From Ancylobacter radicis (GTDB taxonomy: Bacteria; Pseudomonadota; Alphaproteobacteria; Rhizobiales; Xanthobacteraceae): DNA of 64,000 nt. The position numbers were made by a program, and so were the translations under genes. Under the pieces are notes generated by a model that was given only the letters and a program-made list of their open reading frames with translations, did no database searches and was not told the origin of the DNA. This document shows positions 27,501-43,234 of this stretch, piece by piece; position 1 is the first letter of the stretch, and the number at the start of each line of letters is the position of its first letter. The stretch spans positions 1 to 64,000 of the forward strand of contig NZ_JAHCQH010000016.1 in NCBI RefSeq assembly GCF_018449475.1, written 5' to 3'.

Positions 27501-30500
27501 CGTCACCGTGCCGACGGCGAGACCGCCGCCGCCACCGATGGATTGGGCCAGCACCGCGGGCGCGAGGGCGCCGCTCGTCACGATGCCCACCTGCGTGGTG
27601 AAGGTGATCGTGCCACCATCACCGCCCGCGCCGCCCGTTCCGCCAAGCGCCACGCCGGCGGCATAGCCGCTCGCCCCGTCGCTGGTGTCGGCCGATGCCG
27701 TGACGCTGCTCAAGGAGGCTGCGCCGCCGCCGCCGCCGATCGACTGGCCGAGAATGCCGGCCGCGCCCAGCCCGCTGGTGGTGATCGATCCGGAAATCGT
27801 CCACAGCGACAGGTCGCCGCCATCCCCGCCGGCGCCGCCGCTGGCGCCGAGCGCGAAACTCGTCCCGCTGCTGCTCGCGCCGGCCGTGCTCGACGTCGAG
27901 ATGCCGCCAACGCCGCCGCCGCCGCCGATGGACTGCAACAGCATTGCATGGGCGCCGCCGCCGCTGGTGGTGATGGGGGCGCTGTTGTACTGGCTCATCG
28001 AGATGGCGCCGCCGTCATTGCCGGTGCCGCCGCTGCTGCCCAGCGTCACGGCCCCCGCCACGGTGCCGCCCGAGGCGCTGGAATGGCTGGCGCCGCCCGC
28101 GCCGCCACCACCGCCGACCGACTGGCCGAGCACGCCGATGGCGCCGTAGCCGCTGGTCTGGACCTCGGCGTTCACATTCACATTGACGCTGCCGCCGATC
28201 TGGCCCGTGCCGGCCGAGCCGCCGAGGCCGAGCGCGATGTTGGCGTCGCCGCCGCTGGCGGAGGTGCTGTTGCTGGCGCCGCCGACGCCGCCACCGCCGC
28301 CGACGGACTGTGCGAGAATGCCGTGGGCGAGCACGCCATAGGTGATCGTGCTGGCGTTCTGCGTTGCCGACACGGTACCGCCACTGCCGCCACTGGCCCC
28401 CGAACCGCCCAAAGCAAGGCTCAGCGCATAAGTGCCGCTATTGGCGTTGGTGGTGCTGGCGCCGCCCGCGCCGCCGCCGCCGCCCACCGATTGGACAAAC
28501 AGGCCGACCGATTGCGCGCCGAGCGTCAGGATCGGGGCATAAGTGGTGACCGTCACATTGCCGCCCGCGCCACCGCCGCCGCCCGACCCGCCAAGTCCCA
28601 TGGCCAGGGCAACGCCGTTCGAGTTCGAGGTCGAGGTGCCGCTGCTCGAGGCCGAGGAGGTCGCGCCGGAGCCGTCGCTGGTGCTGCCGCCGGTCGCCGC
28701 GGCGATCAACGCGCCGCCATTGCCGCCGCCGCCGCCGACCGATTGGGCGAAGACGCCGTAGGAGGTTGCACCGGCCGTGGCGATGCCCATGAGATTGGCC
28801 TCATCGACCGCCGCATTGACGGTGACGCTGATCGTTCCGCCATCGCCGCCGCCCGCCCCCAAACCGCCAAGGCCGAGCGCCAGCGCCATGGTCCCGCCCG
28901 TGGAGTCCGTCGTCGAGGAGGAGCCGCCATTGCCGCCGCCGCCACCCACCGACTGGGCGAAGACGGCGGTGGAATTGTTGCCTGCGGTCTGCAGCGTGCC
29001 GGCCGTGGTGACCGTGACATTGCCGCCGTCGCCGCCCGAGCTTCCCATTCCGCCCAGCGCCAGCGAGACGCTGTGCTCGTTGGCGGAGGCGTTGGAGGTG
29101 CTGGAGCCGCCATTGCCGCCACCGCCGCCGACCGACTGGGCGAACAGTGCGGGGGAGTTGTCCGGCGCCACCAGCGGCGCCGCCGCGTTGGCGAGCGGGA
29201 TGCCGGTGATGATCGCGGCATAATTGGTCACGCTGACGGCGCCGCCGCTTCCCCCGGTCCCCGCCGCGCCGCCGAGGCTCATGGCCAGCGCATTGCCGCC
29301 GGTCGTCGTGTCATTGCTGCCATTGGTGCCGGCCTGGCTGGCACCCTTGCCGCTGCTGCTCCCGGCGCTCGAGGTGGTTTGCGTGCCGCTGACCGATCCG
29401 CCAACCGAGCCGGTGGAGGCGTTCACCGTCGAGCCGCTGGAAGACTGGGTACCCGGAGAGCTCGACGAGACGACACTGGAGCCGCCATTGCCGCCGCCGC
29501 CGCCCACCGACTGCGCGAAAAGACCGGCCGAGCTGGCGCCGAGCGTGTTGATGTAGCTGAGGTTCGTCGTGCTGCCGCTGGTGACCGTCACGCTGTTGCC
29601 CGTGGCACCGTCGCCGCCGAGTCCGCCGAGGGCAAAGCTCACCGCCGCCTGGCCGCCGGTGGTGGTGCTGGAGGCCGAGCCGCCATTGCCGCCGCCGCCG
29701 CCGACCGATTGGGCGAAGAGGCCGGCGGCCTGTTGGCCGAGCGTCTGGATGTTACCGCTGGCGTTGATGGAGAGAATGCCGCCGCTGCCGCCGGTCCCTG
29801 CCGCCCCGCCGAGGCTGACCGAGGCCGCGTAGGAGCTGCCATCCGCGTTGCTGGAGGAGGTGCCGCCATTGCCGCCGCCGCCGCCAATCGACTGCGCAAA
29901 CAGGCCTGTAGCGAGGTCGCCGGCGGTGACGATGTCGGAAATCGTGGTCACGGTGACCGTGCTGCCGCTGCCGCCCTGGCCGGCGGTGCCGCCAATCGCC
30001 AGCGAGGCGGCGATGCCGTTGGTGGGCTTGTCGGAGGCGGCGCTGTTCGGGTCCGAGCTGGACGATGAGAAGGACGATGAGGCCGATGAGACGTTGCTGG
30101 CGACATTCGCGGCGCCCGCACCGGCCACCGAGGTGACGCCGCCCTGAAGCTCGCTGCCCTCGCCCGCCGCTGTGTTGGTGGTGGCGCTGCCGCCATTGCC
30201 GCCGCCGCCGCCGATCGACTGGGCGAGGATGCCGGCGGAGTTGGCCCCATAGGTCTGCAGCGTGCCGCCGGTGGTGACCGTCACGGTGCCGCCATCCCCG
30301 CCGCCCGCGCCCCAGCCGCCGATGGCGACGCCGGCGCCGTACTGGTTGCTGGAGGCGGTCGCGAGGGAAGACCCGCCATTGCCGCCGCCGCCGCCGATGG
30401 ACTGGGCGAGCACGCCGGCGGAGAGCTCGCCATAGGTGAGGATGCCGCCCGTGCTCAGCCCGACATTGCTGTTGACCGTGACGGCGGCGGCATTGCCGGC

Positions 30501-33500
30501 CGATGCGCCGCCGCCGCCAATGGCGACGGAGGCCGCGACCGTGCTGGCGATGGCGTTGGCATCGGCCGCGCCGCCATTGCCGCCATTGCCGCCAATGCTC
30601 TGGGCGATGATGCCCGGCGCGAGATCGCTGGCCGTCGTGGCATTGCCGGTCTGGACCGAGCCGATCTGCGTCACCAAAACGGTCGAGCCCGCGCCGCCCG
30701 GCCCGCCGCTGCCGCCGATAGCGACCGAGGCGGCCGCGCCGTCGCTGGTGAGCGAGCTGCCGGAGAGGCTGAAGGCCCGGCTTGATCCGCCATTGCCGCC
30801 CGACCCGCCGATCGACTGGGCGAGAATGCCGGTGGAGAGATAGCCGAGCGTCGTGACATTGGCGGCGGTGACCGTGACCGCCCCGGCGCTCGCGGCGGTG
30901 CCGCCCTGGCCGGCGGTCGAACTGCCGCCGCCGACGGAGACGTCGGCTTCCTCGCCGCCGCCGCTCGAGGCCCCGCCGGCGAGGGCGAAGCCGCCATTGC
31001 CGCCCGTGCCGCCGATCGACTGGGCGAGAATGCCGATGGATTGGTCCTGCTGCGTGGTGATGCTGTCGGCAGCATTCACCGTGACGGCGCTGGCCGTGGC
31101 GCCCGCGCCGCCCGTGCCGCCAATGGTCACGGCGGAGGCGAGGATCACCGATCCGGCTGCCCCGGCGCTGAAGCCGCCATGGCCGCCCGATCCGCCGATC
31201 GACTGGGCTATAATGCCGGCGGAGAGCAGGCCGTTGGTGGTGATCGGCGCGCCGCTATACTGGGTGATGGACACGCTGCCGGCGGTGCCGCCGCTGCCGC
31301 CGGCCCCGCCCAGCGCGACCGCCGCCGCGGCGCCGCTGCCGAGAGAGCCGGCCACGTTCCAGCCGCCCGCGCCACCCGCGCCGCCGATGGACTGGCCCAT
31401 GATGCCCACCGATTGCGCGCCGCTGGTGACGATGGCGCCGCCGGCCTGCGTCACCGTCACGGTGCCGGCCGAGCCGCCGCTGCCGCCCCCGCCGCCAATG
31501 GTGGCGTTGGCGGCGACGCCGCTCTCCAGCCCGCCGCCCACGGCAAAGCCGCCGGTGCCGCCCGCGCCGCCCAGCGACTGGGCGATGAGGCCACTGGAGA
31601 AGGGCCCCACCAGGTTCACGCTGGCGTTGTTCGCGACCGTGACGGCCGCGCCAGCCCCGGCCAGCCCGCCGCTGCCGCCGACCGCGAGATTGGCATCGAA
31701 GGCGCCGGAGACGGAGCCCGCCACCGCGAATCCGCCCGAACCGCCGCCGCCGCCGATGGACTGGGCGAGGATGCCCGGTGCGTTGCCGTAGATGGACGCG
31801 CCGCTCGCGACCGTCTGCGTGGTCGTGACGGTGGAATAGGTCGTCACCGGCACCTGCGTAACGACGGTGACCGGCTGCTCCTCGAACCAGCACACCGGGT
31901 ACGGGTCGCAGACTTCCACCGTCTGGAACTCGATGACGGTTTCGGTCACATAGGTTGTGGTTGCGACCTGCGTGGAGGTGGTCTCCGTCACCGTGCTCGG
32001 GGCGATGAGGTCGCTGTAATTGGTGACCTGCACCGTATTGGCAAAGGCCCCGCCGCCGCCGTCACCGCCGACGGTGAGGCTGGCGGCGCCCTCAAGGCCG
32101 GCATCGCCGGTGGTGGCAAAGCCGCCATTGCCGCCGCCGCCGCCGATGGACTGGGCGAGGATGATCGCCGACCCGCCGCCCGCCGCGCTCAGCGTGCCGT
32201 TGGCGCTCTCGACGAAGACGGTGTTGGCGTAATTGCCGCTGCCGCCGAGGCCGCCAATGCTGGCGCCGAGCGCCGGGCCGAGCGAGAGATCGAGCGATGT
32301 CGTGTAGCCGCCATTGCCGCCGCCGCCGCCGATCGACTGGACGACGATCGCGCTGGACTGGTAGCCGGTCGTGGTGATGTTGGCGCTGCCGGCGGCGCCG
32401 GAGTCGGTCTTGTTGTAGGCATAGGCCCAGCCGCCGGTGCCGCCGGTGCCGCCCGTCCCGCCGAGAGTGAGATTGACGGCCGCCGCTTCCCCCGCCGCCG
32501 CCGAGATGGCCGCGCCGCCATTGCCGCCGCCGCCGCCGATCGACTGGGCGATGAGGCCCGGCGAGCGGTCGCCCGTGGTGGCGATGTCGCTGCCCTGGTT
32601 GATCGCCGCCGCGTTGACACCCCAGCCGCCCGACCCGCCGGAGCCGCCGACGGAAAGCGCGATCGAGGCGCCCTGCGCAATGCTGCCGGCGATGCTGGCG
32701 CCCGCATTGCCGCCGCCGCCGCCGATGGACTGCGCCATGACGCCCGGCGAATCCGAGCCGAGGGTGTCGATATTGACGCCACCAGACCCGGCGAAGACAT
32801 TGCCGGCGTCGCCGCCCGAGCCGCCGGAACCGCCCACCGACAGCGAGAAGGCGGCGACCTCACTGCCGGAGAGCGACACCGCGTAGCCGCCATGGCCGCC
32901 ACCGCCGCCGAGCGATTGGGCGATGACGCCGGGGGAGCCGATTCCATTGGTGGTGATGGAGCCGGTGCCGAACGCACTCAGCATGTTCGCGCCGCTGGCC
33001 AGGCAGGCCGCGCCATAATTCGCGCCGGCGTCGCCGCTGGTGCAGTTCACCGTCACCACGGCGGCGTTGCCGCCATCGCCGCCTGAGCCGCCATGGGAGA
33101 TGGAGGCGCCCTCCGCCGCGCTCAACGAGAGCGACAGCGCGCCGCCGCCCGTGCCGCCGCCGCCGCCGAGCGACTGGGCGAGGATGCCGGGTGAGTTGAG
33201 TTCCTGCGTGGAGACGCCGCCGGTATTGGTGACGAAGACATTGCCGCCCGCGCCGCCATTGCCGCCCGCGCCGCCCATGGCAAAGGAGGTGCCGACGATG
33301 GAGGTGGCGACGCCGAAGCCGCCATTGCCGCCGCCGCCGCCGACCGACTGCGCGAAAATGCCGATGGCCCCGCCGGCGCTGTCCGATGGGGCGGTGGTGC
33401 TGGCGCAGGAATTGCCGGTGCAGATGGTGCCGGTATTGCTGACCGTTACGGTGTCGGCGTCGCCGCCGCCCCCGCCATCGCCGCCGCTGTCCGTGCCGCC

Positions 33501-34706
33501 GATGATGATGCCGGTGAGGCCGCTGCTATAGGCCAGTCCGCCCGTGCCACCGGCGCCGCCGACCGACTGCGCGGCAATGCCCATCGCCGAGCCATTGGTG
33601 AGCGTGATGGCGCCGCTGTTGGTGATGGTGACCGTGCTGCCGCTGCCGGCCGGACCGCCATTGGCGCCCAGGCCACTCAGGCCGGTGGAGACGCCGGCAT
33701 CGCCGCCGCCGCCGCCCACCGATTGGGCCTCGATGCCCCGGCCGCCCAGCCAGTTCGATGTCAGGGCGCCCGAATTGTCGACCGAGACGGTGCTGGAATC
33801 CGCTCCGTAGCCGCCGCCGCCGCCACTGCCGCCGCCGCCGAAGATCCAGTAGCCGCCGCCGCCGCTGCCGCCGCCCGCGCCGGTGCCGCCGACGCTCTGG
33901 GCATAGATGGCAATGGAGTTCTCGGCGGTGATCGAGGCCGAGTTGGAGACATAGACCGTGCCGCCCACGCCGCCGGCGCCGCCGGCGCCGCCATTGCCGC
34001 TGCCGTCGCCATTGCCACCCGCGCCGCCATTGCCGCCAATGCTGAGGACCGCGAGGCCCGCCGCGCCGGTGGATGTGGTGATGATGGCCACAGAGTTGGT
34101 GAGGGAGACCGCGCCACCCTCGCCACCCTCGCCGCCGGAGCCGCCATAGCCGCCCGAGGATACGGACGAGCCCCCTTCGCCACCCTCGCCGCCCTTGCTG
34201 TAGACGACGATGGCGGTGCCGCTGAAGGTGTTGCCCGATCCGCCCGTCGTGGTGACCGTCACGCTTCCGCCATCGCTGCCGGTGGCCCCGACGCCGCCAT
34301 TGATCGCGCCGCCATCAAGACACAGCACCGCATTGTTGCTGTCGCCGCCATGACCGCCATTGCCGCCCGTGCTTCCGGCGACGAGGAAGGTGCCGTCATA
34401 GGTGGAGCCGGCGCTCAGGCTGTTCGTGTAGGTGGCGTTGATGTCAGGCCCGACATCGCCGCTATGCCCGCCGCCCACATTGGCTTCGTAGCCGTTACTG
34501 TCGGGGCAGGAATAGCCCGAACTGCCGCTCGAACCCGTCTGCACGTCGGAATGATCGTAGTTCGGCCCGATGGTCGCATTGCTGGTCTGGGCGAGCGAGG
34601 GGGTTGTGAGGGCGCAGAGCGCCACCAAACCCAGCAACAACGTCAGGCCATGACGGCGATTGCCGATGATGGCCCGATAAGGCTGAATTTTACGCAGCAC
34701 GCTCAT
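24564..34706 (-). CDS. giant glycine-rich repeat autotransporter
   Basis: One uninterrupted frame of 3380 residues. The signal peptide is at about 10-40 (RRHGLTLLLGLVALCALTTPSLAQ). The passenger is built of about 37 repeats, each carrying a variant of AQSIGGGGGNGG followed by Ala/Ser-rich beta strands and TVTVT-type strands, typical of very large beta-helical surface proteins. Ser/Thr-rich inserts break the repeat at three places. The outer-membrane barrel is the last 280 residues or so (SASTPTASYLWLAPIG... to SGSLRLRW). ATG 34706 starts the signal sequence; the frame is open further but overlaps the divergent gene. The likely role is adhesion or a surface layer (inference). A divergent regulator-like gene and c-di-GMP genes follow. 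Confidence 0.88.
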   Translation of the reverse strand: MSVLRKIQPYRAIIGNRRHGLTLLLGLVALCALTTPSLAQTSNATIGPNYDHSDVQTGSSGSSGYSCPDSNGYEANVGGGHSGDVGPDINATYTNSLSAGSTYDGTFLVAGSTGGNGGHGGDSNNAVLCLDGGAINGGVGATGSDGGSVTVTTTGGSGNTFSGTAIVVYSKGGEGGEGGSSVSSGGYGGSGGEGGEGGAVSLTNSVAIITTSTGAAGLAVLSIGGNGGAGGNGDGSGNGGAGGAGGVGGTVYVSNSASITAENSIAIYAQSVGGTGAGGGSGGGGYWIFGGGGSGGGGGYGADSSTVSVDNSGALTSNWLGGRGIEAQSVGGGGGDAGVSTGLSGLGANGGPAGSGSTVTITNSGAITLTNGSAMGIAAQSVGGAGGTGGLAYSSGLTGIIIGGTDSGGDGGGGGDADTVTVSNTGTICTGNSCASTTAPSDSAGGAIGIFAQSVGGGGGNGGFGVATSIVGTSFAMGGAGGNGGAGGNVFVTNTGGVSTQELNSPGILAQSLGGGGGTGGGALSLSLSAAEGASISHGGSGGDGGNAAVVTVNCTSGDAGANYGAACLASGANMLSAFGTGSITTNGIGSPGVIAQSLGGGGGHGGYAVSLSGSEVAAFSLSVGGSGGSGGDAGNVFAGSGGVNIDTLGSDSPGVMAQSIGGGGGNAGASIAGSIAQGASIALSVGGSGGSGGWGVNAAAINQGSDIATTGDRSPGLIAQSIGGGGGNGGAAISAAAGEAAAVNLTLGGTGGTGGTGGWAYAYNKTDSGAAGSANITTTGYQSSAIVVQSIGGGGGNGGYTTSLDLSLGPALGASIGGLGGSGNYANTVFVESANGTLSAAGGGSAIILAQSIGGGGGNGGFATTGDAGLEGAASLTVGGDGGGGAFANTVQVTNYSDLIAPSTVTETTSTQVATTTYVTETVIEFQTVEVCDPYPVCWFEEQPVTVVTQVPVTTYSTVTTTQTVASGASIYGNAPGILAQSIGGGGGSGGFAVAGSVSGAFDANLAVGGSGGLAGAGAAVTVANNASVNLVGPFSSGLIAQSLGGAGGTGGFAVGGGLESGVAANATIGGGGGSGGSAGTVTVTQAGGAIVTSGAQSVGIMGQSIGGAGGAGGWNVAGSLGSGAAAAVALGGAGGSGGTAGSVSITQYSGAPITTNGLLSAGIIAQSIGGSGGHGGFSAGAAGSVILASAVTIGGTGGAGATASAVTVNAADSITTQQDQSIGILAQSIGGTGGNGGFALAGGASSGGGEEADVSVGGGSSTAGQGGTAASAGAVTVTAANVTTLGYLSTGILAQSIGGSGGNGGSSRAFSLSGSSLTSDGAAASVAIGGSGGPGGAGSTVLVTQIGSVQTGNATTASDLAPGIIAQSIGGNGGNGGAADANAIASTVAASVAIGGGGASAGNAAAVTVNSNVGLSTGGILTYGELSAGVLAQSIGGGGGNGGSSLATASSNQYGAGVAIGGWGAGGGDGGTVTVTTGGTLQTYGANSAGILAQSIGGGGGNGGSATTNTAAGEGSELQGGVTSVAGAGAANVASNVSSASSSFSSSSSDPNSAASDKPTNGIAASLAIGGTAGQGGSGSTVTVTTISDIVTAGDLATGLFAQSIGGGGGNGGTSSSNADGSSYAASVSLGGAAGTGGSGGILSINASGNIQTLGQQAAGLFAQSVGGGGGNGGSASSTTTGGQAAVSFALGGLGGDGATGNSVTVTSGSTTNLSYINTLGASSAGLFAQSVGGGGGNGGSSVVSSSSPGTQSSSGSTVNASTGSVGGSVSGTQTTSSAGSSSGKGASQAGTNGSNDTTTGGNALAMSLGGAAGTGGSGGAVSVTNYAAIITGIPLANAAAPLVAPDNSPALFAQSVGGGGGNGGSSTSNASANEHSVSLALGGMGSSGGDGGNVTVTTAGTLQTAGNNSTAVFAQSVGGGGGNGGSSSTTDSTGGTMALALGLGGLGAGGGDGGTISVTVNAAVDEANLMGIATAGATSYGVFAQSVGGGGGNGGALIAAATGGSTSDGSGATSSASSSGTSTSNSNGVALAMGLGGSGGGGGAGGNVTVTTYAPILTLGAQSVGLFVQSVGGGGGAGGASTTNANSGTYALSLALGGSGASGGSGGTVSATQNASTITYGVLAHGILAQSVGGGGGVGGASNSTSASGGDANIALGLGGSAGTGQIGGSVNVNVNAEVQTSGYGAIGVLGQSVGGGGGAGGASHSSASGGTVAGAVTLGSSGGTGNDGGAISMSQYNSAPITTSGGGAHAMLLQSIGGGGGVGGISTSSTAGASSSGTSFALGASGGAGGDGGDLSLWTISGSITTSGLGAAGILGQSIGGGGGAASLSSVTASADTSDGASGYAAGVALGGTGGAGGDGGTITFTTQVGIVTSGALAPAVLAQSIGGGGGLAVGTVTLDANLATSSATLSLGGSNGVTGAGEAVTVTNYWNLATSGVESYGMVGQSIGGGGGLSGLVAGGGSPSFDSGSTVQLGTLGTSSGGGGAVSLVSYAPIQTTGARAVGMIAQSIGGGGGIAAAPGFGSASEASVTLGGSAGGDAGIVSSTWAQYTLSTTGDFAIGMLAQSIGGGGGLSTVPASTATLGGTGGGAGNTVTVTTDVNTLISTTGVGAVGILAQSIGGGGGVVVGAPGQVSFAANSTEADGAAVSLTINGNIATSGTNAAGVIAQSIGGGGGVVLSDAATSWTASGGDGTGASVTVTVSGSITTTGAGADGVIAQSVSNGGGLVMNGTTAELVNGTPANSGKVTVSVVGSGSIVATGAGSNGINAQNYGDPIINIASGAAVIGGAGGTAITSVGSENYINNDGRLSTVDGAEGMAIRASGGFTDVSNGGDLFGNISLDSGFTNSLVNLASGTLRAGSSLDLGGGSSVLRNEGLLRSGSSNLGTVAINGSFVQTSTGVLVVRMDQQSLASDQYGVSGTASLSGGVLGVIYRPGRAMPGTYTTPFLSAAGGLSTTNLVALGNTAILDFALLGSSSVLNLQTTLDFTPPGLSPAAQTIGAVIGDIQTAGSSPLFETIVPVLLGIASVDDLETAYQTVGGGAVSLVPQSFINAASASMASITDQMDRWRFDQTFRQESFRQASFPTVSLRDSSVNAATSASTPTASYLWLAPIGSATTGGGLSGSLIGVTIGADGELPDQPIVAGFAGSFSASSLSADEYGASASTNYGSISAYALYRAGAGYLSAIATVGYGQSDFDRNLYDLGLGLSTDVELGGTVAGGRIEIGYSLELPGGVTLTPFAAFEPMQLWLDSATESFGSLGAGLTYDSTSITALPAYLGVQLDTVWQGADGRRYAPFLRAAWMHDFSPDRDVSRSFAELPELSFSGTAIPVMENALDLHAGMTVTSGSNLTVSAGFDAQFGDGYSVVGASGSLRLRW
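26380..34060 (-). repeat. tandem degenerate coding repeats (AQSIGGGGGNGG units)
   Basis: About 37 copies of a unit around 180-250 bases long, counted by eye from the translated motif. The most conserved DNA part is the CCGCCGCCGCCGATCGACTG stretch on the plus strand. Copies near the N-terminus and centre are most alike (GGNGG variants). The C-terminal eight or nine copies lose the second GG (GGLAV, GGIAA, GGVVV), which suggests older, diverged units next to the barrel. Confidence 0.85.
31790..32007 (-). other. Thr/Val-rich two-cysteine insert in the giant autotransporter
   Basis: Between two ordinary repeat units the protein carries about 65 residues of a different composition: TETTSTQVATTTYVTETV, then VEVCDPYPVCWFEEQPVTVV, then TQVPVTTYSTVTTTQTV. 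It holds a CxxxxxC pair, in contrast to the cysteine-poor repeats, and could form a disulphide-closed surface loop. It is in frame and flanked by normal repeats. Confidence 0.75.
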
Positions 34707-34824
34707 ACGCCCCCGGCCTATCGTCGTATCAGGGGCAGCTTTCCCGCGTGGCCTCCCCTTGCGTAAAAGTCCCGAGCCCTGTGGTAAAGGCAATGTCAGT
34801 TTTTGGAATCGTTGACCTACCGTG

Positions 34825-35730
34825 ATGTTTCCCTTGCAGCACGACCCCGCGCCCGCTTCGCCGCTTCCCGAGCCGCCGCTTGCTCTGCCGCCTCTTTCCG
34901 AACCGATCATCCGCATCTTCGGAAACGATGCTGTCGCCAGGCTGATGGCGAAGCCGGGTTTTGACGCGGCGGTGAAGGCGGCCGCCCGCAGCGCCATTCG
35001 CAACTACGACAGCAGCTGGATTCGCAATCGGCTGATGAATGATCGCGGCCGCTTCCTGGCCGCGCTGCTGATCCTCGATCTGCACTTCGGCGAGAGCGGC
35101 GGTGCGGGCGTCACCGGCGCGCGCCTGCGGCGCGAGGTGGTGGAACTTGGTGTCTGCAGCCCCGGCCGGGCCACGGCCTTTCTTGCCGCTCTGCGCTTTG
35201 CCGGGTTTCTGGCGTTACATCCCGATTCCAGCCTGCGTGAGCGGCGTCTGGTGCCGACGCCGCGCTTCCTCCAGTTGCACCGCGAGCGGTGGGATCGAAT
35301 GTTCGAGGCCATCGCGCACCTCGCTCCGGCGGCTGCCGCGCAGGCCCGGGACCTGCCGGATCAGGCCGTCTTCGGTCCGGGCACCCATGCGCTCGCGGAC
35401 GTATTTCGCCGGGGCGTGCGGGTCTTCGATGCGGCGCCGGAGCTGCGTTTCTTCGCGGAACGGGATGCCGGGCTGGTCAGCCTGGTCACATTGATCGCGG
35501 CGGACGGGACGGTCTCGATCAGCCAGCTGGCGCGGCAGTTCGCTGTGTCGCGTGCCCATATCGCCCAGTTGATGCGCGAGGCGGAAAGGCGGGGCCTCGC
35601 GCAGCCGGCGGCGGCTGGCAACGGCTATCAGGCCGGGCCTGCCCTGTGGCCCGCGATCGCGCGCTTCTATGCGCTGATCTTCCTTATCTTTCAGGCCGCC
35701 GCCGCCGTGGCGCAGGCCGAGCCGGCTTAG
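34825..35730 (+). CDS. unrecognised winged-helix-like protein, divergent from the giant autotransporter
   Basis: A 301-residue soluble protein that I do not recognise. A proline-rich N-terminus (about 1-25) is followed by a helical region. A possible first winged helix is at about 70-150 (RFLAALLILDLHF... SPGRATAFLAALRFAGFLALHP) and a second is near the C-terminus (DGTVSISQLARQFAVSRAHIAQLMREAERRGL), which looks like a MarR/Crp-type DNA-binding helix-turn-helix. The last 25 residues are hydrophobic (FYALIFLIFQAAAAVAQ). A GTG lies one codon upstream as an alternative start. The two starts are only 118 bases apart on opposite strands, so control of the autotransporter is a reasonable guess. Confidence 0.6.
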   Translation: MFPLQHDPAPASPLPEPPLALPPLSEPIIRIFGNDAVARLMAKPGFDAAVKAAARSAIRNYDSSWIRNRLMNDRGRFLAALLILDLHFGESGGAGVTGARLRREVVELGVCSPGRATAFLAALRFAGFLALHPDSSLRERRLVPTPRFLQLHRERWDRMFEAIAHLAPAAAAQARDLPDQAVFGPGTHALADVFRRGVRVFDAAPELRFFAERDAGLVSLVTLIAADGTVSISQLARQFAVSRAHIAQLMREAERRGLAQPAAAGNGYQAGPALWPAIARFYALIFLIFQAAAAVAQAEPA

Positions 35731-35987
35731 CCGGCGCAGAGGCATCGTGATCGGCTTTGTTCAGGGTCCGCAGCGTCGATGCCCGTCGGCTATTGGCTTG
35801 GGTCAGGCAAGTCGAGGTTGAGGAATGTCCTGCCGTACTATTGTACCGTAATACGATTGGCGGTTGTGCTTGTCTCGCCAGATGGGCGGGGGGGATGTTT
35901 AAAACTTTCGGGCGGGGCATCGCGGCGGGGATTTTGTCCCCTTTTGAGGTATAGTGTGTGCGGTAAGCGTTCACAGGCCCGAGAGTG
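35731..35987. other. intergenic with promoter candidates for the DSF-like operon
   Basis: This spacer of about 255 bases precedes the REC-PAS-GGDEF-EAL gene. It includes an AT-richer patch (around 35830-35870, CCGTACTATTGTACCG followed by TAATACG) and a GGTATAGTGTG stretch near 35950 that could serve as a -10. No reading frame here looks real. Confidence 0.4.
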
Positions 35988-38129
35988 ATGCCCGCAATAT
36001 TAATAATTGACGACAGTAGCACCAATCGACGCATCTACTCGGAGCTCGCGCGCCAGCTTGAGGCCGATGTTTACGTACAAACATTCGAGAACGGCAAAAA
36101 GGCGCTGGAGTGGTTATCGGAAAACACCGCTGATCTGATCGTTACCGACTACAAAATGCCTAAAATGAATGGCGCTGAGCTGGTGCGCGCGATGCGGATG
36201 CTGCCGCGTCACCGCGATGTGCCGATCATCGTCGTGACCGCGTATGACGACCGAAGCTTCCGGGTCGAATCTCTGGAGGCCGGTGCCACGGACTTCCTGC
36301 TCAGCCCGGTGGACCATGTGGAATTCCTGGCGCGATCGCGCAACCTTCTGAAGCTGCGCCGCCAGCACCTGCTGCTTGCCGACCGGGCGGAGCAGCTGGA
36401 GATCAACCTCAACGCCAAGGAGGTGCTGCTGCGGGAAAGCCGCGAGGCGCTGGCGCAGGTGATCGATACCGTCCCCGCCTTCATCAGCGTGGCGGATATC
36501 GACGGTCGTTGCATTCTGGTCAATGCCCAGCAGGCGGCCCGCATCGGCAAGCGGCCGACCGACGTGGTCGGGCAGCCGATCGAGGCGCTGCTGGGAGAGG
36601 AGCGCGGCCATATCAGCCGCAGCCTCGACCAGATGGTGCTCCGCACAGGTCGGGCGATCGCACCGCGCGAAGAGGATGTGACCTCGCCAACGGGCGATCA
36701 CACGATCTACCTGACCAGCAAGGCCCCGCTGCATGACGGGGCGGGCCACATCACCAGCGTTCTGACGACCTCGATCGACATTACCGAGCGGCGTGAGGCC
36801 GAGCGGCGGCTGGAATATCTCGCCAGCCACGATTCCCTGACCGGGTTGCCGAACCGCCTCATGCTGCGCGATCATTTGCGCCGGGAACTCGCGCGCGGCC
36901 GACGCGGCAACCAGAATTTCGCGCTGCACTTCATCGACCTCGATCGCTTCAAGGCGATCAACGATGCCCATGGCCACCATCGCGGTGACCGTTTGCTGCA
37001 GGCCGTGGCCGAAAGCCTCACCCGTCTGGTCGGTCCGGGTCTCACGGTGGCGCGACTCGGCGGTGATGAGTTCGCGGTGCTCCAGCCCGATATTGACGGG
37101 CCGGAGGACGCCGAGCGACTGGCCCTCGCTATCTTGCGCATGCTGACGAACGAGGATGAAAACCTCTCCTCGCCACGTATCGGGGCGAGCATCGGCATCA
37201 CCATTGCTCCGCTCGATGGCGCCGATCCCGATGAATTGCTGCGTAACTCCGATCAGGCGATGTATCTGGCGAAATCGCTGGGTGGCAACGCCGTGCGCTT
37301 CTTCGCCGCCGACATGGCGCCGCGTGCCAGCCAGAGGGCGCAGATGGAAGGCGAGATGCGGGACGCGCTGAAGCGCCGCGAATTCGTTCTCTATTATCAG
37401 CCTCTGATCGATCTGAACGGCGACCGTGTCCTCGGCGCGGAGGCATTGCTGCGCTGGATGCATCCGCAACGCGGAGTGCTGCCGCCGGGCGCCTTTCTCA
37501 GCCTGGCGGAAGAAAGCGGTCTCATCGTGCCGATCAACGAATGGGTATTGAGGGAGGCCTGCCGGCAGGGCACGCAATGGCACGCGGCCGGCTTTGGGCC
37601 GCTGCGCATCGCCGTCAACCTCTCGCCGGTCCAGTTCCGGCGCCAGCAGGTCGGCGACCTGGTGCGTCAGGTGCTCGACGAGAGTGGCTTTCCGCCGGAT
37701 CTGCTCGATCTCGAACTGACCGAGGGCATCCTCATCGACCATGACGAGACGGTTGCCGAACAGATGCAGCTCTTGCGCTCGCTCGGGGTCAGCCTGTCGG
37801 TGGACGATTTCGGCACCGGATATTCCTCTCTGAACTACATTCGCAATTTTCCGCTGCACCGTCTCAAGATCGACCGCTCCTTCGTGAAGGATCTGGCCAA
37901 TGACCTGCGGGCGCTGGCCATCGTGCGCACCATCATCGATCTCGGCCATATTCTGAACCTGAAGGTGCTGGCCGAGGGCGTGGAGGAGAAAGCGCAGTTG
38001 GAGACCCTGCGGGCGGAAGGCTGCGACGAGGTGCAGGGCTATTATTTCAGCCGACCTGTTCCGGCGGAGGCCTTCGCCCTCTGGCTGTCACAGCGGGACG
38101 GCAGGCGCGCTGTCGCCAGCGCCAGCTAG
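35988..38129 (+). CDS. response regulator with PAS, GGDEF and EAL domains
   Basis: A 713-residue cyclic-di-GMP enzyme. REC (1-120) has the acidic pair IIDDSS and the phosphoacceptor D54 in IVTDYKMPKMNG; the usual C-terminal lysine is serine (FLLSPVD). A linker helix leads to a PAS domain (about 150-265, VIDTVPAFISVADIDG... SIDITERREAERRL). Next come GGDEF (about 270-435) with an intact RLGGDEFAVL (358-362) and no obvious RxxD inhibitory site, and EAL (about 450-700) with GAEALLRW (485-487), VNLSPVQF, LELTEG, DDFGTGYSS and AEGVEE all present. Both activities are thus possible. The stop is four bases before the RpfC-like kinase, which marks it as the cognate output protein. A GTG one codon upstream is an alternative start. 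Confidence 0.93.
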   Translation: MPAILIIDDSSTNRRIYSELARQLEADVYVQTFENGKKALEWLSENTADLIVTDYKMPKMNGAELVRAMRMLPRHRDVPIIVVTAYDDRSFRVESLEAGATDFLLSPVDHVEFLARSRNLLKLRRQHLLLADRAEQLEINLNAKEVLLRESREALAQVIDTVPAFISVADIDGRCILVNAQQAARIGKRPTDVVGQPIEALLGEERGHISRSLDQMVLRTGRAIAPREEDVTSPTGDHTIYLTSKAPLHDGAGHITSVLTTSIDITERREAERRLEYLASHDSLTGLPNRLMLRDHLRRELARGRRGNQNFALHFIDLDRFKAINDAHGHHRGDRLLQAVAESLTRLVGPGLTVARLGGDEFAVLQPDIDGPEDAERLALAILRMLTNEDENLSSPRIGASIGITIAPLDGADPDELLRNSDQAMYLAKSLGGNAVRFFAADMAPRASQRAQMEGEMRDALKRREFVLYYQPLIDLNGDRVLGAEALLRWMHPQRGVLPPGAFLSLAEESGLIVPINEWVLREACRQGTQWHAAGFGPLRIAVNLSPVQFRRQQVGDLVRQVLDESGFPPDLLDLELTEGILIDHDETVAEQMQLLRSLGVSLSVDDFGTGYSSLNYIRNFPLHRLKIDRSFVKDLANDLRALAIVRTIIDLGHILNLKVLAEGVEEKAQLETLRAEGCDEVQGYYFSRPVPAEAFALWLSQRDGRRAVASAS

Positions 38130-38132
38130 GCC

Positions 38133-40631
38133 GTGTTGGACATGCCGGAGCATACCGCCTTCCTGGCTCGGCTAGGGGTCCCCTTGCGCTGGATGGCCGG
38201 GCGACTGCGAAACCGGCCCGACAGCGAGCACGAGATGAGCTTCAATCGGCTCGTCTTCGCCTTCATCATCGTCGTCGTCCTCGCGCTGAACAGCAGCGCC
38301 GGCAATGTGGATGATGCGCTGCGGGTCATGGCGCTCTACATCCCGCTGGCGCTCGGGGTCCTCGCCCATATCCTCGTCCGCCCGGCCGCGTCGCGCGGAC
38401 GGCGCATTTTCGCGCTGCTGCTCGATTGCGGATTCCTGTCCTGGCAATTGCATCTGGGCGGCGAGATCGCCGCGCTGTTCTTCCCGATCTATCTCTGGGT
38501 GATCTTCGGCAACGGCTTTCGGTTCGGCCTTGCCTCGCTGTTCACAGCCATACCGGTCGCGACGCTGAGCTTCGCCGTGGTGGTGTGGACCACCCCGTTC
38601 TGGCGCGACCAGTGGCACCTCTCGCTTGGCCTGCTGGTCGGGCTGATCATCCTGCCCGCCTATGCCGGAACGCTGATCCGCAAGCTCTCGGCGGCGACCA
38701 AGGTGGCGGAGGAGGCGAGCCAGGCCAAGAGCCTGTTCCTCGCCAGCGTCAGCCATGAGCTGCGCACGCCGCTCACCGCGATCGTCGGCATGACCGGGCT
38801 GCTCCGCAACACGCCGTTGACGACGGACCAGCGCGACATGGTCGAGACCGTGGATGTCGCCAGTCGATCCCTGCGCACGCTGATCGACGGGCTGCTCGAT
38901 CTGTCGCGCATCGAGGCCGGCCGCATGCCGGTGCCGCATGAGCCGTTCGACCTCGTCGCGCTGCTGCTGGACGTGCGCCGGCTGGTCGAGGGCCAGGCGC
39001 GCGACCGCGGGCTGAGCGTCAGCCTTCATGTGACGCCGCGCACGCCGCTTCGCCTCGTCGGTAGCCGGCAGCATGTCCACGAGGCGCTGGTCAACCTTGT
39101 CGGTAATGCGGTGAAGTTCACCCCGCAGGGCGGCGTGACCATCGCCGTCGACGCGGAGCCGGCCGAGGATGGGCGGCTGACGCTCGCCGTCGAGGTGAGC
39201 GATACCGGCATCGGCATCGCGCAGGCCGATCAGGAGCGCATCTTCGAGGATTTCACCCAGGCGGATGCAAGCATTCTCAATCGCTTCGGCGGTACGGGGC
39301 TGGGGCTCGCGATCACCCGCCGGCTGGTCGCGCTGATGGGCGGTGCCATCACGGTGGAGAGCGAGCCGGGCGTCGGCAGCACGTTTCGCTTCCATGTGCC
39401 GGTCGAGGCCGCGGCAGCGGGCGAGGTGCATGGCGCGGAAGAGGCGGATGTCGTTCTGGTGTGCCGCGACACCGCCCCGCTCGCGCCGCTGCTCGCCGCG
39501 CTGGCCCAACTGGGCGTCCAGCCTGCCATCGCCGATCCGCGGATGGGGCCGGCTCGCATGTTCTCCCCGCAGGCCGCCGGCGCGATCCGGCTCCTGTTCG
39601 AGCCGGATACGCGGAACCTCGCCTTGCCCGCGCCCTCCGCTGGCGCTCCGCCGCCGGTGCTGATCAGCCCCGCCGCCGAGCCGGGGCTGCCGCCTATGGA
39701 GATGCGCCGCCGCGTCGCGAGTGTGCTGGGCGCGCGGGCGCCGGTGGACGAGGTGCGGCGTGCGCTGACGCTGGCGCGCCGGCTCGGCACCGCATCGTCC
39801 CATGAGGCCTCGATCGCCACCCCGCTCGCCCCGCGCCGGGCGTGCCGGCTTCTCCTCGCGGACGACAACCGGGTCAACCAGCGCGTGTTCCTGAGGATTC
39901 TCGAAGGCGCGGGCCACACGGTGCGCGTCGTCGAGAACGGTGAGCAGGCGCTCGATCTGCTGTCGAAGGGAGCCGATGCCTTCGACCTCGTGCTGATGGA
40001 TTTCAACATGCCCGAGATGGACGGGCTGGAAGCCAGCAAGCTCTACCGCATGATGTCCACGGGCCATGACGGGCTGCCCATTGTGGGCCTCACCGCCGAC
40101 GCCACGGCGCTCGGTGACAGCCGATGGCGCGAGGCCGGCATGGATGATTGCCTGATCAAACCGGTGGAGCCGGCGATCCTGCTGGCGACCATCGACCGGC
40201 TAATGCGCGGCGGCGAAGCTGCGCCGCCTGTCGGACCGCGCGCGGCAGCATCCCGCCCGCATCTGGTCGCCCGTCTTCCGGCGCTCGACGAGGAGGCGGT
40301 GGAGAGCCTGCGCCGTCTTGGCGGACCGCAATTCGCAGCGGAACTGATGGAGGACTATCTCGACGATGCGCAGACCATCCTCGCGCGGATCGTCGCGACG
40401 GCGCGGCGCGGCGATCTGGTCGGCTTTCGCAACGAGGCGCATGCGCTGCAAAGCAGCTCCGCCAATGTCGGGGCACTGGCCCTCAGCGCGCTCTGCCAGC
40501 CCTGGCGCGACCTGCGCGCGGAGGAACTGCGCGCCCGCGCCGACGATGTCGACCATTGGGCGCAGCAGGAGCTGGCGCGCACCCGCGCGGCCATGGCGGC
40601 CTGTTGCGTGCGCCTGCGGGGCTTGGAGTGA
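38133..40631 (+). CDS. rpfC: RpfC-like hybrid sensor kinase (HisKA-HATPase-REC-Hpt)
   Basis: An 832-residue hybrid kinase. A short cytoplasmic N-terminus with RPDSEHEM precedes about five membrane segments (residues 37-185). Then come HisKA (H208 in SVSHELRTPL), HATPase (LVNLVGNAVKF, VSDTGIGIA, GGTGLGLAI), REC (LLADDNRVN, LVLMDFNMPEMDG) and a C-terminal Hpt domain with EAHALQSSSANVG. This domain order, the five-segment sensor, and phrases such as FGNGFRFG and PFWRDQWHLSLGLLVGLIILP match the DSF sensor RpfC as I remember it. The start is GTG 38133; ATG 38142 is an alternative. In Xanthomonas RpfC senses DSF and restrains RpfF. The rpfF-like gene converges on it. Confidence 0.87.
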   Translation: MLDMPEHTAFLARLGVPLRWMAGRLRNRPDSEHEMSFNRLVFAFIIVVVLALNSSAGNVDDALRVMALYIPLALGVLAHILVRPAASRGRRIFALLLDCGFLSWQLHLGGEIAALFFPIYLWVIFGNGFRFGLASLFTAIPVATLSFAVVVWTTPFWRDQWHLSLGLLVGLIILPAYAGTLIRKLSAATKVAEEASQAKSLFLASVSHELRTPLTAIVGMTGLLRNTPLTTDQRDMVETVDVASRSLRTLIDGLLDLSRIEAGRMPVPHEPFDLVALLLDVRRLVEGQARDRGLSVSLHVTPRTPLRLVGSRQHVHEALVNLVGNAVKFTPQGGVTIAVDAEPAEDGRLTLAVEVSDTGIGIAQADQERIFEDFTQADASILNRFGGTGLGLAITRRLVALMGGAITVESEPGVGSTFRFHVPVEAAAAGEVHGAEEADVVLVCRDTAPLAPLLAALAQLGVQPAIADPRMGPARMFSPQAAGAIRLLFEPDTRNLALPAPSAGAPPPVLISPAAEPGLPPMEMRRRVASVLGARAPVDEVRRALTLARRLGTASSHEASIATPLAPRRACRLLLADDNRVNQRVFLRILEGAGHTVRVVENGEQALDLLSKGADAFDLVLMDFNMPEMDGLEASKLYRMMSTGHDGLPIVGLTADATALGDSRWREAGMDDCLIKPVEPAILLATIDRLMRGGEAAPPVGPRAAASRPHLVARLPALDEEAVESLRRLGGPQFAAELMEDYLDDAQTILARIVATARRGDLVGFRNEAHALQSSSANVGALALSALCQPWRDLRAEELRARADDVDHWAQQELARTRAAMAACCVRLRGLE

Positions 40632-40634
40632 AAA

Positions 40635-40664
40635 GTCCCTGGCGGCCCCAGAGCCGCCAGGGAC
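40635..40664. terminator. bidirectional terminator between rpfC-like and rpfF-like genes
   Basis: A perfect 12-bp stem (GTCCCTGGCGGC / GCCGCCAGGGAC, loop CCCAGA) lies in the 42-base gap between the convergent genes. Read leftward it is followed by TTTTCAC, so it is best as the rpfF terminator. Rightward it is followed by GAGTTGTTGT, a weaker tail. Confidence 0.85.
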
Positions 40665-40673
40665 GAGTTGTTG

Positions 40674-41639
40674 TCACTCGGCCGCCGTCAGCATCGGCAT
40701 AGGCGCTTCCAGCCCCGCGAGCCGCTTGTTCTGGGCCGCGCAGAGCCGGTCCATCTTCCGCAGATCGGCTTCCGTGAGGTTCAGCGCCGCTTCGGCCCAG
40801 ATGTCGACGACGTTGATCAGTTCCTCCAGCGTCACCGGGTTCACGCGGCGGCGCGCCCGGTACACCGCCAGATGCGCGTTATGCTTGCGGCTGTGGCGGG
40901 TGATGTAGTCCATGGCGGCCTGCTGCCCCTGACCATCCTCCGCCAGCACGTCGACCACCCCCATCGCATGGAGTTCCTCGGCCGTGTGCACCCGACCGGA
41001 AAGGATCAGCGCCTCCGCCTTGGCCCGGTCCATGCGCCGCGACAGGAAGCTGTAGGCGCCCATGCCGGGGAACATGTTGAACAGGATTTCCGGCAGACCC
41101 ATCTTGGCGCTGCGCTCGGCGACGATGAGATCGAAGGAGAGCGCGTGCTCGAAGCCGCCCCCCAGCGCGTCGCCCTGCACGAGCGCCATCGTCACCACCG
41201 GGGAATCGAAGGCAACCGCATTGCGGTGGATCGCGGTGACGGCGACATGCCCGTAATGGCGCATGGCGGCGAGATCGCGGGTTCGGATGCGCTCGGCAAA
41301 ATGGCCGAGATCGCCGCCGAGATTATAGATTCCCGGCACGTCGGAGGCCATGACGAACCAGGAGAAAGGGGCGGCCGCGGGGTCGGGCAGCTCGGCGAAG
41401 CCGCGGGTGATCGCTCCCTGCAGGCGGCTGATGTCGTGCATCAGTTCATGCGTATAGGACGGCTTTCCGAGCGGCCTCATGAAGGACCAGCAAATAGAAT
41501 TCAGCGTATCAATGTCGAGGCGCAGGTTGGCATAGCCGCCATCATGTATCGTCTGAACCGCTTTTTCTTGTCCAAGACGGGCGGTCTGGGCGGCGATGTG
41601 GGTCGTAGAGGCGTCGTTCTTCAAGGCAATCAAGGACAT
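40674..41639 (-). CDS. rpfF: RpfF-like DSF synthase (crotonase family)
   Basis: A 321-residue enoyl-CoA hydratase/isomerase superfamily protein. The oxyanion-hole and active-site region reads VQGDALGGGFEHALSFD and MGLPEILFNMFPGMGAYSF. The two glutamates (E164 and E184) are 20 residues apart, as are the catalytic pair E141 and E161 of Xanthomonas RpfF (from memory). The FPGMGAYSF phrase is typical of RpfF and not of ordinary hydratases. RpfF both dehydrates 3-hydroxyacyl-ACP and releases a cis-2-unsaturated fatty acid, the DSF signal. The gene converges on the RpfC-like kinase, as expected for a DSF system. A generic hydratase is possible but less likely. Confidence 0.88.
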   Translation of the reverse strand: MSLIALKNDASTTHIAAQTARLGQEKAVQTIHDGGYANLRLDIDTLNSICWSFMRPLGKPSYTHELMHDISRLQGAITRGFAELPDPAAAPFSWFVMASDVPGIYNLGGDLGHFAERIRTRDLAAMRHYGHVAVTAIHRNAVAFDSPVVTMALVQGDALGGGFEHALSFDLIVAERSAKMGLPEILFNMFPGMGAYSFLSRRMDRAKAEALILSGRVHTAEELHAMGVVDVLAEDGQGQQAAMDYITRHSRKHNAHLAVYRARRRVNPVTLEELINVVDIWAEAALNLTEADLRKMDRLCAAQNKRLAGLEAPMPMLTAAE

Positions 41640-42202
41640 GCTCTCGCTCCATGGCGGTGAGGAAGGGGAACCCTGCCCGGCGCGGCGCGGCGCGCGTGCA
41701 GTTCACCTTCCATTAGGCGTGGAGAGCGGCTTCAGAGCCAGAGCTTATTCAGTCGAGACTGTGCAAACGCAGTAAATATCGTGCGCATGCAACTTAAACG
41801 TCAGAAATCTCGCGTCTAACACCTCAGCTGGTCCATTTCTAGACGTCAAGTCTCCTACAGAGCGCATCGCGGATTGCCGAGCGGGCCGCCGGTCCGGCTG
41901 TTTGTGAGTGGGCTACCAATCTACCTCAGGGACAAAGGGCGGCCGGCTCGCATGGCTTGGGAAGCCCGCAGCCCGCTCGGCTCTTGGCTCGCTCCTTTTT
42001 GGGAGGGGGGAAGAAGGTGGCGATGAGCCGAACGAACATACCGGACACGTCCCCGGCCGGCGGGATGATGGGTCCGCCGCTTATTTTCGACAAGCTTGCC
42101 GGGCATTCTTATGCTAGGCGGGCTGGAGTACCGGGCCTTCCCCCAACGACATCGACGAGACGCCGATTACGCGCGATCGAGGTGCGTAGATACGGAGTCA
42201 AG
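41640..42202. other. divergent intergenic region rpfF / desaturase
   Basis: A 563-base spacer between divergently transcribed genes, unusually long for this window. The first 200 bases include AT-richer stretches (about 41745-41835, with AGTAAATATCG and AACTTAAACG) that could hold both promoters. A purine-rich run GGGAGGGGGGAAGAAGG lies near 42000-42016. The frame of the desaturase stays open back to about 41957, but the extra residues do not look like protein. Confidence 0.5.
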
Positions 42203-43234
42203 ATGTCGATGGCAGGTGAAGCGCCACTTGTGAAAGCCGATGCACGAAGCTGGGCGCGCCGTTTGGTCGGTTACCGGCAGTGCGATCCGCGTCGCAGCGT
42301 CTGGGAGCTTCTGATTACCGCCGTCCCCTTCGCGCTCGCCTGGGGCGTGATGCTTGCCGCGCTCAAGCTCGATCAGGTCTGGCTCTACGCGCTCCTCATC
42401 CTCCCGGCGGCGGGGCTGCTGGTGCGCTTGTTCATGATCCAGCACGATTGCGGCCACGGCTCATTCTTCGGCAGCCGGCGCGGCAATGACTGGACCGGGC
42501 GGGTGATCGGCGTCCTGACGCTGACGCCCTATGACCATTGGCGCCGCAGCCATGCGATCCATCACGCCAGTGCGGGCAATCTCGATCAGCGCGGCATTGG
42601 CGACATCGACACGCTGACGGTCCGCGAATATCTGGCGCGCTCGACCTGGGGGCGGATACGCTACCGGCTGTACCGGCATCCCCTGGTGATGTTCGGCATC
42701 GGCCCGATCTATGTCTTCCTGTTCGAAAGCCGGTTGCCCGTCGGCTCCGCCCGCAAGGGCTGGACGCCATGGATCAGCACCATGGCGACCAATCTGGGCA
42801 TCGCTGTCGTGGCGGGTCTGCTCATGTGGGCCTTCGGCATCGGGCCGTTTCTGCTGGTCCATCTGCCGATCGTCATATTGGGGGCGGCCGCCGGCGTCTG
42901 GCTGTTCTATGTCCAGCACCAGTTCGAGGAGACGCACTGGGCCGACGGTGAGAACTGGGAATTTCATGAGGCCGCGCTGCATGGCTCGTCGCATTACGAC
43001 CTGCCCGCCATACTGCGCTGGTTCAGCGCCAATATCGGCATGCACCATGTGCATCATCTGTGCAGCCGCATCCCCTATTATCGCCTGCCGGAAGTCCTGC
43101 GTGACCACCCGGAGCTGCGTGACGTCGGGCGCCTGACCCTCTGGCAGAGTTTCGGATGCGTGCGGCTGACGCTGTGGGATGACCAGCAGCGGCGACTGAT
43201 CTCGTTTCGCGAAATGCGCGCGCTCTATCTATAG
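42203..43234 (+). CDS. fatty acid desaturase (delta-12/omega-6 type)
   Basis: A 343-residue membrane di-iron desaturase that introduces a double bond into acyl chains in the inner membrane. The three histidine boxes are clear: HDCGH (81-85), HAIHH (117-121) and HHVHH (281-285). About four to five membrane segments occur, for example LLITAVPFALAWGVMLAAL and LGIAVVAGLLMWAFGIGPF. ATG 42203 has CGGAG five bases upstream. It sits divergent from the rpfF-like gene. Whether it is part of the DSF circuit or simply adjusts membrane fluidity cannot be told from the sequence. Confidence 0.9.
   Translation: MSMAGEAPLVKADARSWARRLVGYRQCDPRRSVWELLITAVPFALAWGVMLAALKLDQVWLYALLILPAAGLLVRLFMIQHDCGHGSFFGSRRGNDWTGRVIGVLTLTPYDHWRRSHAIHHASAGNLDQRGIGDIDTLTVREYLARSTWGRIRYRLYRHPLVMFGIGPIYVFLFESRLPVGSARKGWTPWISTMATNLGIAVVAGLLMWAFGIGPFLLVHLPIVILGAAAGVWLFYVQHQFEETHWADGENWEFHEAALHGSSHYDLPAILRWFSANIGMHHVHHLCSRIPYYRLPEVLRDHPELRDVGRLTLWQSFGCVRLTLWDDQQRRLISFREMRALYL

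Follow-up and report, generated by a model that had tools for sequence, protein, structure and literature searches.

DSF-type signalling relies in Xanthomonas on RpfF, RpfC and the REC-HD-GYP protein RpfG, and in Burkholderia on RpfF and the PAS-GGDEF-EAL receptor RpfR. The locus analysed here lies in a window of 64,000 nucleotides (the whole stretch of DNA studied) from the genome of Ancylobacter radicis (4.2 Mb, 99.97 % complete). In this locus an RpfF-like crotonase and an RpfC-like hybrid kinase accompany a regulator with GGDEF and EAL domains, which raises the question of whether the two designs have been joined in it, as an earlier sequence-only reading had proposed. In the sections of two reviews used here, DSF perception is described as having two core or main pathways, RpfC-RpfG and RpfR, both acting via c-di-GMP (PMC4504480, PMC13220807).

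Organization of the locus

The close spacing of the regulator and kinase genes and the convergent orientation of the RpfF-like crotonase, noted in the sequence-only reading, were confirmed from the open frames and Pfam searches (Table 1). The same applies to the domain content of the regulator (REC-PAS-GGDEF-EAL) and of the kinase (HisKA-HATPase-REC-Hpt), all Pfam matches being above their cut-offs. The GTG start codon of the regulator is followed by an ATG codon at 35988.

Table 1. Features of the putative signalling locus in the window
Feature	Position	Strand	Length	Basis and remarks
REC-PAS-GGDEF-EAL regulator	35985-38129	+	714 aa from GTG	open frame, Pfam, REC tree, motif scan; GTG at 35985, stop codon ends at 38129
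RpfC-like hybrid kinase	38133-40631	+	832 aa	open frame, Pfam, kinase tree; frame opens at 38133
Spacer between the convergent stop codons of kinase and crotonase	40632-40673		42 bases	
RpfF-like crotonase	40674-41639	-	321 aa	open frame, PDB search, tree, residues, model scores

The same gene order and orientation were found in the relatives, which argues against a chance arrangement of the trio. In all but one of the 37 related loci the spacer between the kinase and crotonase genes ranged from 10 to 195 bases; in the remaining one (L166) it had 1379 bases. For 47 related loci the comparison covered approximately 8 kb beyond the crotonase and a few kb past the regulator, or less, and there none of the seven flanking genes of the window turned up near the trio; the giant flanking frame was represented in this comparison by its last 400 residues only. 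The desaturase gene (41957-43234) and the six other flanking genes, with no counterpart in these stretches, were rejected as parts of the system.

The crotonase belongs to the RpfF clade

The crotonase matched Pfam ECH_1 above the cut-off, and a PDB search placed four entries, with E values of 1.1e-49 to 1.2e-45, well ahead of all others: two named RpfF, including 3m6m (1.1e-49), and a pair of close crotonases. The next match was at 1.7e-15. A tree of 62 rows separated the RpfF clade from eight generic hydratases with support of 100/100 and placed the window protein inside it, in agreement with the earlier RpfF-like assignment. This placement ruled out the identity of an ordinary enoyl-CoA hydratase. 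Also in the clade are 3m6m, a fragment of Xanthomonas RpfF, and the crotonase of B. cenocepacia whose gene converges on that of a PAS-GGDEF-EAL protein. The window protein belongs to a subclade of 37 rows (100/99), largely alphaproteobacterial, with one betaproteobacterial plasmid protein. A pair of Glu residues spaced by 20 positions was present in all 114 aligned crotonase rows; these are the catalytic glutamates of RpfF, E141/E161 in Xanthomonas numbering.

The crotonase passed the NCBIfam model PRK08788 (376 bits, cut-off 177) and failed the RpfF equivalog model NF053515 (204 bits, cut-off 550). The B. cenocepacia crotonase of the RpfF/RpfR-type pair, used as a yardstick, scored 188 bits and failed as well, and all eight RpfF-clade proteins tried stayed below the cut-off (180 to 274 bits). 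This cut-off is thus narrower than the functional family, and failing it is no argument against the function. The name RpfF-like, rather than RpfF equivalog, appears the appropriate one for the window protein. It is the only RpfF-type crotonase of its genome, the two other listed matches being weak (4.8e-12 and 2.1e-6). Of 25 genomes in the genus, 11 encode a long crotonase, which marks the system as accessory.

The kinase resembles RpfC and carries a modified sensor motif

The HisKA, HATPase_c, Response_reg and Hpt domains of the kinase contain the expected phosphorylation sites His208 (HisKA), Asp623 (REC) and His770 (Hpt, assigned by eye). A simple Kyte-Doolittle scan indicated about five hydrophobic segments within the first 200 residues (41-59, 64-82, 108-126, 133-151 and 164-182), besides some overlapping extra peaks and a further one at 440-458. 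In the PDB search general hybrid kinases ranked far higher than the RpfC REC of 3m6m (2.6e-17).

According to the section of Cai et al. used here, DSF sensing by Xanthomonas RpfC depends on R15, D17, S18, E19 and Q22 beside the membrane; the substitutions Q22A, Q22E and Q22N weaken sensing in X. campestris, and Met is absent from the variants reported in that section (PMC5391125). The motif of the window kinase, RPDSEHEM, lies directly ahead of the first hydrophobic segment and retains the R, D, S and E residues, with Gln22 replaced by Met. The description of the kinase as RpfC-like was supported for its layout and for most of the DSF-sensor motif.

Among 73 aligned kinases, Met occupied position 22 in 37 of the 38 linked to a GGDEF-EAL regulator (the exception being L161), and Gln in 14 of the 15 linked to a kinase output (the exception being L142), in all 13 linked to HD-GYP and in both gammaproteobacterial GGDEF-linked ones; the five unassigned kinases had Met once and Gln four times. 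The R, D, S/T and E residues were retained in 37 of the 38 GGDEF-EAL-linked kinases, the motif of L064 being changed, and the rest of the sensor motif was far less conserved among the sampled HD-GYP-linked kinases. In a kinase tree of 42 rows, built with the motif left out, the 13 Met kinases formed one clade (100/99) that included L142. Met22 is thus a trait of a single lineage, and its association with the output counts as one event, not 37.

As Gln at this position is important in X. campestris, the Met residue suggests that the ligand may differ. An alternative reading keeps the sensor and the relay and takes the ligand to be something other than a DSF-type product of the crotonase, the latter being a lipid or thioester enzyme under the kinase REC and the kinase sensing membrane fatty acids or another lipid. 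The nearly uniform Met22 of the GGDEF-EAL-linked kinases, set beside the role of Gln in the section of the X. campestris study cited above (PMC5391125), points in this direction, but the crotonase is placed in the RpfF clade with both glutamates conserved, and the remaining sensor residues are kept in all but one of these kinases. We consider such a non-DSF ligand unlikely, and a DSF-type signal remains the preferred reading.

The regulator has GGDEF and EAL domains with intact motifs

Pfam matches of the regulator comprised REC (5-116), PAS_4 (161-271), GGDEF (280-435) and EAL (457-691). The motif scan detected DYKMP with Asp55, GGDEF at 359, EAL at 486 and the motifs farther along the EAL domain, all intact, and did not detect an RxxD inhibitory site in this protein. 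Domains for both synthesis and degradation of c-di-GMP are therefore present, as had been claimed. All 37 related regulators showed the EAL motif, 36 the GGDEF motif (L161 being the exception) and 11 the RxxD site; L042 and L047 lacked one or two of the EAL patterns that lie farther along.

The window genome yielded 58 REC, 13 EAL and 26 GGDEF matches, and no match to the HD-GYP profile (HD_5, PF13487). HD_5 was found in 15 of the 29 other genomes searched; among ten other carriers of the same genus it was found in two, in frames of more than 1000 residues, and in none of the other eight. An HD-GYP regulator encoded elsewhere in the window genome was rejected as the partner of the kinase on the basis of the PF13487 search, so the proposed output without RpfG, with GGDEF-EAL in its place, was sustained. 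With PAS-GGDEF-EAL instead of HD-GYP the regulator is not classed as RpfG.

The REC domain of the regulator is orthologous to that of RpfG-type partners

In the trees, RpfG-type denotes REC genes of gamma- and betaproteobacterial loci that show the HD-GYP pattern and adjoin an RpfF-RpfC pair; Xanthomonas RpfC and RpfG themselves were not among the rows. The trees were built from chosen representatives, except for a larger quick REC tree of all rows. The REC tree (81 rows) contained as outgroups 38 REC rows from the window genome (from the loci of the best 30 of the 58 matches), five kinase RECs and three gammaproteobacterial RECs. The RECs of the GGDEF-EAL, HD-GYP and kinase-output partners formed one clade (99/98), in which the alphaproteobacterial GGDEF-EAL and kinase-output RECs were united (100/98) among or beside the HD-GYP RECs, the inner order being weakly resolved. 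The larger quick tree agreed, with long-branch warnings. The REC of the regulator is orthologous to that of the RpfG-type partners, its grouping with the latter indicating that the effector was swapped on the RpfG orthologue itself.

This result bears on the possibility that the true partner of the kinase is another regulator and that the GGDEF-EAL protein next to it responds to its own PAS domain or to other kinases. The 58 REC matches of the window genome offer many candidates, and RpfR and other PAS-GGDEF-EAL proteins perceive ligands via PAS, according to the part of the review consulted (PMC4504480). The adjacent REC is nevertheless orthologous, by the tree above, to the REC of HD-GYP partners, and regulator and kinase genes adjoin on one strand in 37 other loci. 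A different partner seems highly improbable, and the pairing of the kinase with the adjacent regulator is retained.

The PAS domains of the GGDEF-EAL and kinase-output types grouped together (91/85) and apart from the RpfR PAS; those of L161, L151 and L155 fell outside the joint group. The GGDEF-EAL parts of the RpfC-linked regulators also formed one clade (98/96). In the best tree B. cenocepacia RpfR, the single RpfR included in the trees, was not sister to this clade but formed part of a polytomy that also held unrelated GGDEF-EAL proteins of the same genome. A constrained grouping of the two was not rejected (p-AU 0.22), which is what favours a descent of the GGDEF-EAL part from RpfR and hence a real Burkholderia/Xanthomonas fusion. 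Against this stand the lack of sisterhood in the best tree and the PAS grouping with that of the kinase-output regulators, and we judge such a fusion very doubtful. The claim that the locus joins the two designs holds as anatomy; as a statement on descent it was neither borne out nor rejected by these trees. For the REC-PAS-GGDEF-EAL genes of gammaproteobacteria (L095, L105), by contrast, an origin in common with those of the window type was rejected (p-AU 6e-36). We read these trees as suggesting a single REC(-PAS) chassis on which the effector has been exchanged at least twice, a similar architecture having arisen separately in gammaproteobacteria.

Distribution of the outputs

The GGDEF-EAL trio was found in 37 non-duplicate loci besides the window, in Hyphomicrobiales and Acetobacteraceae; named carriers include Ancylobacter, Kaistia, Chelatococcus, Breoghania, a Mesorhizobium, Roseomonas, Pseudoroseomonas, Acidocella, Caldovatus and MAGs. 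For this count three apparent duplicates were removed (L144, L169 and L170, taken as duplicates of L065, L032 and L036 because their contigs are of equal length) and L166 was added; L063 and L068, with odd or broken kinase or regulator frames, and L045 and others with a contig end inside the trio were left out. Two loci, L155 and L166, were assigned by hand because the automatic rule had either picked a second kinase or failed to reach a kinase lying farther away.

Outputs were tallied in 116 loci, namely L031-L110 (the best 80 of 135 relatives) and L135-L170. REC-PAS-GGDEF-EAL was present in 38, REC-HD-GYP in 13, REC-PAS(-PAS)-HisKA-HATPase in 15, REC-PAS-HisKA in one and another REC protein in three; four loci had a kinase and no REC gene in view, and 42 had no RpfC-like kinase in view, some of them lying at contig ends. 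As the best 80 loci are the nearest relatives, this tally leans toward the type of the window. Domains were called with profiles made from the window proteins and with the HD-GYP pattern. Their main assignments agreed with a Pfam check of ten proteins and four loci, which covered one (L074) of the 13 HD-GYP partners and added domains missed by the custom profiles, i.e. PAS in L095, L135, L137 and L165 and HisKA_2 with PAS in L148.

In a class-wide sample an RpfF-clade crotonase was found at E 1e-40 in 24 of 385 genomes. A kinase output (15 of 24) is commoner among these carriers than GGDEF-EAL (two of 24, the window and G171); one of the 15, L142, has a different orientation, and its ATPase domain was not detected. 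Of the other seven, three were at contig ends, three showed no kinase and one, L148, had REC-PAS-HisKA_2 without an RpfC-like kinase. The GGDEF-EAL trio is the Hyphomicrobiales/Acetobacteraceae version of a wider pattern. At least three effectors, HD-GYP, histidine kinase and GGDEF-EAL, are thus combined with one REC.

Proposed mechanism

We consider it probable that the locus encodes a DSF-type autoinduction circuit of the RpfF/RpfC design, in which PAS-GGDEF-EAL takes the position of HD-GYP on an RpfG-type regulator. The RpfF-like crotonase would make a cis-2-unsaturated fatty acid signal and, as in Xanthomonas, would be held in check by the kinase REC. Binding of the signal to the kinase motif next to the first membrane segment would lead to autophosphorylation at His208, and the phosphate may then be relayed through Asp623 and His770 to Asp55 of the regulator, the residues for both steps being present. 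Phosphorylation of Asp55 would shift the balance between the cyclase and phosphodiesterase activities of the regulator. By analogy with RpfG and RpfR, net c-di-GMP breakdown at high density is the favoured outcome, and the PAS domain may serve as a second, intracellular input.

Comparison with known systems

The closest parallel is the Xanthomonas RpfF-RpfC-RpfG system, with which the locus shares a synthase gene convergent on the regulator-kinase operon, a kinase with membrane segments and HisKA-HATPase-REC-Hpt domains, most of the sensor motif and, by way of the gamma- and betaproteobacterial RpfG-type genes, an orthologous regulator REC. It differs in having PAS-GGDEF-EAL for HD-GYP, Met for Gln22 and no HD-GYP match in the genome. 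With the RpfF-RpfR pair of Burkholderia and Cronobacter it has in common an RpfF-clade synthase adjoining a PAS-GGDEF-EAL protein, whereas the window protein has an N-terminal REC, a membrane kinase as the partner and a PAS that does not group with that of RpfR. The alphaproteobacterial kinase-output relatives (e.g. L143, L150 and L156) share RpfF, the RpfC-like kinase, the orthologous REC, a mostly related PAS and the gene order, but have HisKA-HATPase as the effector and, in 14 of 15 cases, Gln as residue 22. In the gammaproteobacterial loci L095, L105 and L110 an RpfF-clade crotonase gene also stands beside a REC-GGDEF-type gene, with an RpfC-like kinase in L095 and L110; in contrast to the window, their gene order is different, their REC falls outside the RpfG-type clade, and the GGDEF-EAL part of L095 and L105 is of separate origin.

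In the part of the review consulted, RpfS of Xanthomonas and BCAM0227 of B. cenocepacia are accessory kinases that link DSF-type sensing to outputs distinct from RpfG and RpfR (PMC4504480); a DSF response that bypasses these two is therefore not new in itself. Both are likened to the window system by description, not by sequence, and unlike its kinase they are not RpfC partners. A KEGG-based study reports the RpfC-RpfG pair in alphaproteobacteria, and effector changes are not described in the part of it used here (PMC8895600). None of the listed titles and abstracts of the open-licence literature described a GGDEF-EAL or kinase output at an RpfF/RpfC locus, which is weak evidence of absence. 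The REC orthology with HD-GYP partners, the kinase-output form in 15 of the 24 class-wide carriers and the association of Met22 with GGDEF-EAL appear to be newly seen.

We put forward tentatively that the alphaproteobacterial systems form a third core DSF pathway. It would be built on a modular REC-PAS chassis with a repeatedly exchanged effector (HD-GYP, histidine kinase, GGDEF-EAL and the HisKA_2 type of L148), core sensing would be untied from c-di-GMP breakdown, and the Met22 GGDEF-EAL branch might hear a cis-2 fatty acid other than that of Xanthomonas.

Significance

Together with its relatives, the locus points to the RpfF-RpfC-REC half as a stable module and to the effector as the part that is exchanged. 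The carriers lie outside the DSF users named in the consulted parts of the reviews (PMC4504480, PMC13220807). These bacteria are predicted to include new producers of the signal, to use a c-di-GMP output that may be bifunctional and, in the kinase-output forms, to respond without any c-di-GMP domain in the output, and position 22 of the kinase is a one-residue candidate for a determinant of signal specificity.

Other outputs and layouts of the RpfF-type loci

In other alphaproteobacteria (L143, L150, L156 and similar loci) the regulator gene adjoining the RpfC-like kinase encodes a REC-PAS(-PAS)-HisKA-HATPase protein, i.e. a second histidine kinase devoid of a c-di-GMP domain. At L142 a kinase of the Met22 clade (Met at the position of Xanthomonas RpfC Gln22) adjoins a divergent REC-PAS-HisKA gene, in which the ATPase domain was not detected; this locus possibly represents a recent switch of output. 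At L148 a REC-PAS-HisKA_2 gene adjoins the RpfF-clade crotonase, and no RpfC-like kinase was seen in the part of the locus in view.

The gammaproteobacterial RpfF-clade loci L095, L105 and L110 each contain a REC-GGDEF(-EAL) gene, interrupted by the contig end in L110, and this gene is recruited separately. In two Rhodospirillales MAGs a different kinase directly precedes the crotonase. Two E. coli plasmids of 99.8 kb encode a distant RpfF-like crotonase (identity 33.5%).

Close to the regulator gene in the window lies a glycine-rich open frame of 3479 residues, which gave no Pfam match at 0.001 and perhaps encodes a giant adhesin or autotransporter.

In L135, L136 and L165 the crotonase converges directly on a GGDEF-EAL protein, a kinase-free layout resembling the RpfF/RpfR design of Burkholderia.

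Location of the features described in the text
Feature	Location	Source
RpfF-like crotonase and GGDEF-EAL protein, convergent	L135:6854-10186	Methylobacterium plasmid
RpfF-like crotonase and GGDEF-EAL protein, convergent	L136:6935-9799	Sphingomonas plasmid
RpfF-like crotonase and GGDEF-EAL protein, convergent	L165:6746-10120	
REC-PAS(-PAS)-HisKA-HATPase partner	L143:2315-4321	
REC-PAS(-PAS)-HisKA-HATPase partner	L150:2266-3954	
REC-PAS(-PAS)-HisKA-HATPase partner	L156:2194-4185	
Met22-clade kinase and REC-PAS-HisKA gene	L142:2901-9161	
REC-PAS-HisKA_2 gene and crotonase	L148:6941-9784	
Kinase ending in REC and RpfF-type crotonase, same strand	L073:5673-8798	Rhodospirillales MAG
Kinase ending in REC and RpfF-type crotonase, same strand	L077:4455-7503	Rhodospirillales MAG
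Distant RpfF-like crotonase	22352-23035	E. coli plasmids NZ_CP060058.1 and NZ_CP060062.1
Glycine-rich open frame	24564-35003 (-)	Window
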